Positions 41,805 through 56,915 of a stretch of DNA of 64,000 bases are shown here, piece after piece. Positions within the stretch are counted from its first letter, which is position 1; the number at the start of each line of letters is the position of its first letter. The position numbers and the translations under genes are program-made. The notes beneath the pieces are model-generated. The model was not told the origin of the DNA and made no database searches. It worked only from the letters and a program-made list of their open reading frames with translations. This DNA comes from Actinomycetota bacterium (GTDB taxonomy: Bacteria; Actinomycetota; Actinomycetes; Actinomycetales; Dermatophilaceae): assembly GCA_020161845.1 (NCBI GenBank), contig JAIUNK010000007.1, forward strand, positions 81,266 to 145,265, read 5' to 3'.

Positions 41805-41864
41805 GACCGCTCACGACCTGCACTTATAGCACCATGGTGCCAAAGGGGCAGGTCGTGAACGGTC
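41805..41864. repeat. Palindromic repeat family B, copy 1 (60 nt)
   Basis: Arms 41805-41821 and 41848-41864 pair at 16 of 17 positions; the loop holds the perfect 12-bp palindrome GCACCATGGTGC (41829-41840). A second 60-nt copy is at 56347-56406. The two copies share the outer GACCG/CGGTC ends, the core TAGCACCATGGTGCCAAA and, beyond the right arm, CCTG-GGA-AAC spacing for about 20 nt more. Confidence 0.88.
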
Positions 41865-41888
41865 GCCCTGGGGATAACTCCCCGGGAC

Positions 41889-41948
41889 ACGGCTTCGCTC
41901 ACGGCTTTGCTCACGGCTTCGCTCACGGCTTCGCTCACGGCTTCGCTC
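41889..41948. repeat. 12-bp tandem repeat, five units
   Basis: ACGGCTTCGCTC is repeated five times at 41889-41948, the second unit with one change (T for C). It lies immediately after palindromic repeat B and before repeat A in the 434-nt gap between pair 4 and pair 5. Confidence 0.92.
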
Positions 41949-42029
41949 ACGGCGGGCGCCACCCGCGGGTTGGTTCCACACGCGGGCCGGCTCCTCGGTG
42001 CCACCCAAGAGGTCGAGCGGACCCCCCAG

Positions 42030-55397: not shown

Positions 55398-56915
55398 GTG
55401 GAACTGTTGATCTCGACCCACCCGATGCCCGGCGCCGCCAGCGAGGACGCGTTCGCCGTCGCGCCCGACGGCAGCGCGGCGGTGCTCGTCGACGGCGCGG
55501 GCCTGCCCGCGGAGCTGCGCGCCGGGTGCGGGCATTCGGTGCGTTGGTACGCCGGCACGCTCGCCCAGGCCATGCTTGATCGACTCATCGCGCGCACCGG
55601 GACGCCCTCGCAGGCCCTCGCGGCGGCGATCGGCGACGTCCTGGCGGCCCACGGGCCGGGCTGCCGGCCCGAGGCGGGGTCACCGAGCGGGACCGTGGCG
55701 GCGTGGCGGATCAGCCCCGGCACGGTACCGGGTTCAACGCCGGGTTCGCCGCCGGGTTCGCCGCCGAACGCGCAGGGGGGACAGGGTGATTCGGGACTGC
55801 TGGAGTACGTCGTGCTGGCCGACTCCACGCTCTTCCTGCGGGACGTGGATGGTCTCGTCACCGAGATCGTCGACGAGTCGGTCGACGATCTGACCGGCGT
55901 CGAGCGGGCGCGCATCGCCGCCGAGCTCATCGCGTCCGGCTCTTCCGAATCGGCCGCCCGGCTGGCGGCGCATCGCCGGACGACCGAACGGCTGCGCAAT
56001 GTCGACGGCGGATTCTGGTGTGCCCACGTCGATCCCGGCGCGGCGGCCCATGCGTTGACCGGTGCCGTGCCGCTCGATCGCCTCGACGCGGTGGTCCTGG
56101 CCAGCGACCGCGTGACGCGTCTGATCCGCCCGTTCGGCCGGTACACGCCGAGCCAACTCCTGCACCGGATCCTGACGGGTGCCGCGGCGGACCTCGTCGC
56201 CGAGCTTCGGGCCACGGAGGTCGAGGAGGTCGCGCTGACGCGACGGATCGCCGTGAAGCCACACGACGACGCGACGATCGTCGCGGCCGTGCTGCCGCGC
56301 GGCGGCCCGCCGGAGCACGGCCCAGCACCCGCCGACTCATCGAATCGACCGTTGGTGACCAGCCCGTTTAGCACCATGGTGCCAAAAGGGCTGGTCACGA
56401 ACGGTCAACCTGTGGACAACCAGGGGCACGCGGCGTGGCGCGCGGCGTTGCCGGGCACCCCCGGGTACGCCGTGCGCCCCGCTCACCGCACCGACGTCCC
56501 GGCGATCCTGGCGCTCATCGTCGCCGATCAGATCGGCGCAGCGCGCGAGAGCGATGTGGATCACCCGGGCTATCTGGCCGCCTTCGAGGCCATCGACGCC
56601 GACCCCGGCGAACTGCTCGTGGTGATCGTCGACGACGCCGACGCGGTCTGCGGATCGTTCCAGCTGTCCCTGCTGCCCGGCCTGGCCCGCCGCGGGTCGC
56701 TGCGCTGCCAGATCGAGGCGGTCCGGGTCGCCGCCTCGCTGCGGGGTTCGGGGATCGGCGCGGCCGCCATGCGCTGGGCGATCGAGTGGGCGCGCGGCCA
56801 GGGCTGTTCGCTCGTGCAGCTGACCACCGACAAGTCCCGCGGCGACGCCCATCGGTTCTACGGACGGTTGGGCTTCGTGGCCAGCCACGAAGGGATGAAA
56901 CTCAGGCTCACCTGA
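55398..56915 (+). CDS. PP2C-like phosphatase domain joined to a GNAT domain through a palindromic repeat
   Basis: 505 residues from GTG at 55398. Residues 1-315 are a PP2C-like domain: SEDAFAVAPDGSAAVLVDGA near the start, YVVLADSTLFL, LDAVVLASDRVTRLIRPFG and VKPHDDATIVAAVLP at the end carry the metal-binding aspartates of that fold. Residues about 350-505 are a GNAT acetyltransferase (YAVRPAHRTDVPAILAL, VRVAASLRGSGIGAAAMRWA, HRFYGRLGFVASHEGM). Between them, bases 56347-56406 are copy 2 of palindromic repeat B, translated as RPLVTSPFSTMVPKGLVTNG. The repeat copy at 41805 is intergenic, so this frame is probably two former genes bridged by a repeat, or a single gene with an insertion. Confidence 0.75.
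   Translation: MELLISTHPMPGAASEDAFAVAPDGSAAVLVDGAGLPAELRAGCGHSVRWYAGTLAQAMLDRLIARTGTPSQALAAAIGDVLAAHGPGCRPEAGSPSGTVAAWRISPGTVPGSTPGSPPGSPPNAQGGQGDSGLLEYVVLADSTLFLRDVDGLVTEIVDESVDDLTGVERARIAAELIASGSSESAARLAAHRRTTERLRNVDGGFWCAHVDPGAAAHALTGAVPLDRLDAVVLASDRVTRLIRPFGRYTPSQLLHRILTGAAADLVAELRATEVEEVALTRRIAVKPHDDATIVAAVLPRGGPPEHGPAPADSSNRPLVTSPFSTMVPKGLVTNGQPVDNQGHAAWRAALPGTPGYAVRPAHRTDVPAILALIVADQIGAARESDVDHPGYLAAFEAIDADPGELLVVIVDDADAVCGSFQLSLLPGLARRGSLRCQIEAVRVAASLRGSGIGAAAMRWAIEWARGQGCSLVQLTTDKSRGDAHRFYGRLGFVASHEGMKLRLT
56347..56406. repeat. Palindromic repeat family B, copy 2 (60 nt, in frame in a gene)
   Basis: Arms 56347-56365 and 56388-56406 pair at 18 of 19 positions; the 12-bp palindrome GCACCATGGTGC is at 56371-56382. 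Length is the same 60 nt as copy 1, a multiple of three, and no stop codon arises in the frame of the surrounding gene. Confidence 0.9.

Follow-up and report, generated by a model that had tools for sequence, protein, structure and literature searches.

An in-frame palindromic repeat between a phosphatase-like and an acetyltransferase domain, and the dispersed repeat family of its genome

The locus and its predicted protein

The window, a stretch of 64,000 nucleotides from an actinobacterial draft genome, contains a frame at 55398-56915 (GTG start, 505 aa) in which a phosphatase-like domain and an acetyltransferase domain lie on either side of a palindromic repeat. A second copy of the palindrome is found in a non-coding gap of the same window. 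The features are as follows.

55398..56306, + strand: PP2C/PPM-like phosphatase domain, the N-terminal half of the protein (AlphaFold model m37374046541f, Foldseek; homologous frames end nearby)
56346..56420, + strand: 75-nt repeat unit, palindrome plus asymmetric tail, in-frame reading RPLVTSPFSTMVPKGLVTNGQPVDN (41-copy alignment, translation)
56347..56406, no strand assigned: 60-nt palindrome; RNA hairpin of -45.2 kcal/mol, z -6.95
56371..56382, no strand assigned: invariant 12-bp core GCACCATGGTGC (41 of 41 copies and a core-blind search)
56411..56419, + strand: tail nonamer TGTGGACAA, reverse complement TTGTCCACA
56466..56915, + strand: GNAT acetyltransferase domain and stop codon (PF00583, E 8e-16)
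41805..41864, no strand assigned: second palindrome copy, intergenic, 52 nt 3' of the stop of the upstream gene
41865..41878, + strand: tail of the second copy, CCTGGGGATAAC, with one substitution relative to the consensus

The original prediction described two related 60-nt palindromes, at 56347-56406 and 41805-41864, the first lying in frame between two unrelated domains, and these elements are borne out. Both palindromes are present and align as members of one family of 41 copies; translation of 55398-56915 meets no stop across the repeat, and GLVTNGQPVDNQGHAAWR is one of the peptides predicted from the 505-aa product; the repeat does fall between two domains, the GNAT domain being recognized by Pfam and the PP2C domain by fold rather than by Pfam. 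A length that is a multiple of three and the lack of a stop are weak evidence alone, because the same frame is open in 31 of the 41 palindromes. The copy at 41805-41864, folded as RNA, gives a hairpin of -37.8 kcal/mol (z -5.38), and a short tandem repeat of cacggcttcgct units occupies window positions 41890-41950, directly 3' of this second palindrome.

Assignment of the N-terminal half relied on structure prediction. A Pfam search of 55398-56345 returned no families at E 0.01 and did not reach the PP2C family cut-off, and one N-terminal homologue matches PP2C_2 below the cut-off. The AlphaFold model of this part (pLDDT 84.9, pTM 0.84) has PPM/PP2C phosphatases as its best Foldseek matches in the PDB (2jfs, E 4.9e-9; 1txo_A, E 1.3e-7; TM-scores 0.45-0.6), and residues D32, D142, D290 and D291 are invariant across 9 aligned sequences. 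The predicted fold supports a putative PPM-fold domain. This domain carries SDRVTR at window 56103-56111 in place of the SDG found in five of eight aligned homologues, and phosphatase activity is therefore uncertain.

Two readings would deny that the long frame represents a single protein. The locus could be an assembly artefact in which two loci were joined at the repeat, as might be feared in an 82-contig draft with a dispersed repeat, but the longest exact match between the 56347-56406 copy and any other copy is 30 nt, which makes misassembly unlikely, and the frame is kept across the junction; we regard an artefact as highly improbable. Alternatively, ribosomes could restart for the GNAT domain, so that the long frame would not be the sole or main product. 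In-frame starts do lie in or after the repeat (ATG 56376, GTG 56412, GTG 56472), and GTG 56472 is close to the start of the GNAT domain in homologues. However, inspection found no good Shine-Dalgarno-like sequence upstream of the three starts, and the halves are not separated by a stop, so that two proteins appear rather improbable.

The repeat family and its invariant core

The genome containing the window (G000) is a draft of 4,392,256 bases in 82 contigs. The repeat used as a query gave 82 matches with both strands counted, and a profile search of stretches of this genome gave 82 hits that represent 41 distinct places. The consensus of the aligned copies, CGACCGTTCGTGACCTGCCCTTTTGGCACCATGGTGCTAAAAGGGCAGGTGACGAACGGTCGnCCTGTGGATAAC, consists of the palindrome and a one-sided tail, giving a unit of ~75 nt (25 codons) whose size is approximate at both ends. 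The tail, scored at 9 or more of 12 letters, is on one side in 34 of the 41 copies and on the opposite side in 2. The arms are genuinely complementary, as pairing falls to 28-44% when partners are slid. Compensatory stem evolution was rejected, as arm pairing is 85.6% in the 41 copies versus 86.2% in shuffles, with no covariation. L031 and L059, two of the four coding copies read in sense, share a 1-nt insertion at the same left-arm position and both stay open; the mirror-image 1-nt insertion is found in the right arm of the intergenic copies L046 and L061, and such insertions are therefore not confined to genes.

Outside this genome the repeat could scarcely be traced. A covariance-model search of 186 family genomes, including the own genome, identified 7 with a match at E 0.01 or better, and the six others reached 25-32 bits (maximum 32.4), whereas the listed copies of the own genome, 25 in number, scored 86-102 bits. 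These searches scored the top 25 or 12 candidates in each genome and can therefore lose weak copies; within that limit, the covariance model found no convincing copy in the 185 other family genomes and no match in the three congeners (G001, G002 and G003). In an order sample of 396 genomes, which overlaps the family set, E 0.001 was reached by the own genome and by one 28.6-bit match. Weak matches elsewhere (25-32 bits) were in G136, G088, G143, G174, G092, G108 and G535. Neither genome_contigs nor viral_contigs, where records near the window's genome may be absent, contained an exact match to the pattern around the core, and plasmid and phage collections gave no repeat match. An Rfam identity was considered and dismissed, the only hits being sub-threshold (three miRNA hairpins and one sRNA) and judged to be chance. 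As far as searched, comparison of these genomes points to a repeat restricted to its own lineage, and no description of this palindrome family, core sequence included, was found in the open-licence PMC literature.

The most conspicuous property of the family is the contrast between its core and its arms. The 12-bp core is identical in all 41 copies (492 of 492 letters), whereas 290 of 1,968 arm letters differ from the consensus, or 220 of 1,728 (13%) when the 5 indel copies are set aside. If the core changed at the arm rate, the 36 indel-free copies should show 55 core changes, a rough figure given that the copies are related by descent, and 0 are seen. A core-blind pattern, with the core left free and 3 mismatches allowed, gave 36 matches per strand, and every listed match had an intact core; the invariance is thus not due to the search. 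The genome contains 42 sites with the core sequence, of which 41 are the repeat copies and the 42nd has no arms and appears coding-like by eye. The five copies inside genes read the core in three ways (STMV or GTMV, QHHGA and WHHGA), which argues for a constraint on DNA, and an unchanged core beside variable arms suggests that something reads the core as DNA.

The tail has a recurrent motif of its own. On its reverse strand it includes the nonamer TTRTCCACA, exact in 23 of the 41 copies, and TGTGGACAA/TTRTCCACA appears to resemble a DnaA box. In 329 kb of own DNA chosen around the copies, this nonamer occurs at 5 sites outside them where 0.85 would be expected by composition, and for four of the five the distance to the centre of a copy is 76-92 nt. 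Among 60 shuffled 9-mers that served as a control, one equalled TTATCCACA in frequency with 19 sites and may be the motif redrawn.

Gene calls from a purpose-made codon-usage caller place 5 of the 41 copies inside genes and 36 between them, 3 of the latter overlapping a gene end by at most 12 nt. For 30 of the 36 intergenic copies the nearest gene end is a 3' end. The gaps that contain copies are convergent in 16 cases, tandem in 17 and divergent in 3; in 134 control gaps taken from these stretches the corresponding numbers are 9, 84 and 41 (Fisher P 4e-7 for enrichment of convergent gaps and 0.005 for depletion of divergent gaps). Two genes (L042 4050-5975 and L060 3056-4012) take their last residues and stop (DRS*) from the repeat, and in L052 the repeat overlaps the stop of the gene.

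The repeats might instead be retained because a regulator, DnaA or a nucleoid protein uses them as DNA sites or because they terminate transcription, the coding copies being by-products. The strict core beside diverged arms, its survival through three readings in the five coding copies, the recovery of only intact cores by the core-blind search, the excess of TTRTCCACA within copies and the surplus of convergent over divergent gaps relative to the control all favor this explanation. Against it, the repeat was not found in the three congeners, so that it is not an old housekeeping site, and inspection of the aligned copies revealed no T-run after the hairpin. We consider it unlikely that DNA-site or terminator function accounts for the family in this manner.

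In-frame copies and the possible origin of the fusion

All five coding copies are in frame and lie between recognized domains, as judged by open frame and Pfam. They are distributed among the following predicted proteins.

Window gene, frame 1: PP2C-GNAT protein
L031 and L058, frame 1: two different 2-oxoacid dehydrogenase E2 acyltransferases
L059: BadF/BcrAD-DUF2229 activase
L054, antisense: NadB-like FAD protein (Pfam FAD_binding_2 and Succ_DH_flav_C)

The L054 gene is presumably L-aspartate-oxidase-like, a name taken from its sequence. A comparison with congeners took in three of these genes, the two E2 and NadB. By alignment, the domains are matched in the congeneric homologues, whose linkers vary and do not include the repeat, and when nine congener loci were searched with the model, the only two matches were at chance level (13.7 and 11.9 bits). 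In the E2 homologues the net gain in linker length is below 25 residues, and hence either the old linker was partly lost or the ancestral linker was shorter. The family thereby displays what marks an in-frame palindromic element: 5 of its 41 copies apparently reside in unrelated conserved genes whose frames are unbroken, and the congeneric homologues of the E2 and NadB genes are free of it. In all three frame-1 coding copies (window, L031 and L058) a consensus Cys codon, TGC, is AGC (Ser), and A is present at that base in 3 of the 38 others (post hoc Fisher P 0.0019). This Ser codon, and the frames of L031 and L059 that stay open with a 1-nt insertion, may be signs of selection on the peptide.

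We propose that 56346-56420 probably belongs to a family of palindromic mobile repeats, ~75 nt long, non-autonomous and restricted to this lineage, whose in-frame copies are translated as a flexible linker; the mobility of the repeat and translation across it are what we infer. Under this proposal the repeat would have spread to 41 places in its own genome, with copies tolerated where they landed at the 3' ends of genes or in variable linkers between domains, and others lost. The unit spans 25 codons and has one open sense frame; copies landing in that frame would therefore be translated as linker peptide, and the window copy would form the middle of the PP2C-GNAT linker.

How the two domains came to be joined can be approached through their relatives. 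Of the matches listed in a search of 186 family genomes (best 8 candidates per genome), none but that of the window covers both domains, and a two-domain orthologue without the repeat, which would have spoken against the original prediction, did not appear among them. GNAT matches in G101 and G039 reach back to query residues 288-295, and the G101 locus has no PP2C. Seven genomes have both domains (G058, G044, G158, G034, G088, G085 and G069, with weak PP2C matches in the last three), where the two lie on separate contigs or are 90 kb or more from each other. No PP2C was found within 1.5 kb on each side, or less, of 37 GNAT loci, and no such GNAT within about 5 kb of 12 PP2C loci; at one of the latter (L179) the opposite strand shows a weak match to GNAT over 49 residues (E 2e-5). 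A genome_contigs protein scan, a narrow test, returned one relative, a PP2C homologue without GNAT in a Microbacterium MAG. Within the genomes searched, these matches indicate that the PP2C-GNAT pairing is probably confined to the own genome. Among the congeners, G001 gave a weak GNAT match (E 5e-5), G002 and G003 gave none, and no comparable PP2C match was seen. The expectation that relatives would have the domains as separate genes held for those in which the domains were seen, where they are also unlinked, but not for the congeners, which have neither domain at comparable similarity.

The subfamily of this GNAT has no coding N-terminal extension in most of the 37 loci. Such an extension is present in eight (L074, L075, L076, L082, L083, L086, L088 and L091), a count from which L003, with a long extension and a poor coding score, was excluded; it is NUDIX by Pfam in all three scanned (L074, L083 and L086). 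One further locus of the 37 (L011) has a Condensation domain fused to the same subfamily. A model search of these nine extended loci, the NUDIX/Condensation group, found no repeat, and fusion of this GNAT therefore happens without the palindrome. The L083 protein ends in DUF6855.

These observations bear on whether fusion came first, with PP2C and GNAT joined by rearrangement and the repeat then entering an existing linker. This order is quite possible. It is favored by the repeat-free extensions of the same GNAT subfamily and by the four other repeat genes, which are multidomain with the repeat between domains and of which three have repeat-free congeners of the same architecture. It is weakened by the lack of a repeat-free PP2C-GNAT both among the matches listed for the family genomes and in the narrow genome_contigs scan.

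The alternative, along the lines of the original prediction, is that insertion near the 3' end of the PP2C gene replaced or bypassed its stop and translation ran on into a downstream GNAT gene. The PP2C frame ends 5-22 residues past the DD motif in 11 of the 12 loci (in L182 it ends before the motif), and in the window the repeat starts 23 residues past it, which favors bridging. The preference of intergenic copies for gene 3' ends, the two genes that borrow their last residues and stop from the repeat, and the readthrough of frame 1 point the same way. However, because the domains are unlinked in the seven genomes that have both, bridging needs an extra rearrangement. We consider this route conceivable but unlikely. 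What stands of the earlier claim is a dispersed, probably mobile repeat and domains that are unlinked in the relatives where they were seen; the removal of a stop and bridging gained no such footing, as no relative examined has the two genes adjacent. The palindrome as a bridge from PP2C to GNAT is a plausible proposal. It is likewise doubtful, on present evidence, that a core-selected mobile palindrome served as a ready-made linker which joined two unlinked genes in one species and remodels at least four other proteins.

Probable mobility and relation to known palindromic systems

The proposed mobile repeat was compared with known families of small bacterial repeats and their mobilizing enzymes. 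The Y1 (RAYT) transposase, PF01797, has 0 matches in the own draft genome. DUF222/HNH genes, with 21 matches in the genome, were considered as the mobilizer and set aside, as none of the ten loci examined shares the repeat; one of the ten has an 18-nt match outside the repeat. Target-site duplications of 3-10 nt were not above the shuffled control in 35 of the 41 copies, six near-duplicates being excluded. Of the traits of a MITE, the family thus has the terminal inverted repeats, the 60-nt unit being itself an inverted repeat, and lacks the target-site duplication. It also differs from REP/BIME elements in having no RAYT and, by inspection, no GTAG/CGTC tag, its consensus being CGACC...CGGTCGnCCTGTGGATAAC.

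Several copies are associated with longer repeated sequences. Five (L033, L034, L037, L038 (8685) and L040) lie inside a longer repeat, in which pairs are 78-92% identical over 271-491 columns and AGGAAGCGCTGACTTTC-like inverted ends are seen in L033 and L040. This longer repeat may be a MITE-like element, the palindrome perhaps having been taken up before its spread. A second palindrome of ~37 nt is common to the longer repeat and two DUF222 loci (L066 2802-2843 and L067 689-728). Two pairs of copies appear as if locally duplicated: L045 3034/3184, 150 nt apart, and L049 4030/5202, with 247 bp of common sequence at 92.7% identity.

The closest parallel is with the RPE, which the passages cited here describe as dispersed stem-loop palindromes of ~100-150 bp in Rickettsia and Wolbachia, common to several species, found both intergenically and in frame in unrelated genes, and peptide-encoding (PMC3767692, PMC10969869, PMC2229807). 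The present repeat is likewise a dispersed palindrome located between genes and in frame inside unrelated genes. Compared by description, it differs in its length (~75 nt), in lying in a GC-rich genome, in having been seen in one species, and in possessing a 12-bp core that does not vary and a tail that is asymmetric. The enterobacterial repeats ERIC/RU-1 (127 bp), YPAL/RU-2 (168 bp) and RU-3 (103 bp) are described in the cited parts of two sources as small open-frame repeats fused to genes and proposed to create new proteins (PMC2759123, PMC2229807), and target duplications are marked for ERIC and YPAL in a table (PMC2229807). Our family resembles all three in being a small repeat with an open frame joined in frame to genes, and is unlike ERIC and YPAL in that no target duplication was seen in the 35 copies. 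REP elements are given, in the portion cited, as 20-40 bp long and tagged at one end by GTAG or CGTC, most of them intergenic and some intragenic, the CGTC families having no dedicated transposase (PMC3733652). The similarity to REP consists in a palindrome with a feature at one end, a mostly intergenic location and, for the CGTC families, the lack of a dedicated transposase; unlike REP, the present palindrome is 60 nt long and its consensus has no GTAG/CGTC tag. The palindromic repeat family is well supported and is probably mobile. By analogy, it would be a new family that works like RPE, set apart by its invariant core and asymmetric tail.

In the cited parts of earlier accounts, palindromes translated within genes so far come from Rickettsia and the enterobacteria (PMC3767692, PMC10969869, PMC2229807, PMC2759123). 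A lineage-restricted family in a GC-rich genome with congeneric empty sites provides a testbed for the entry of repeats into proteins via interdomain linkers. The same system could show how repeats stay open and whether gene fusions result. The invariant 12-bp core offers a concrete target, and a core-binding protein may be the mobilizer or a regulator.
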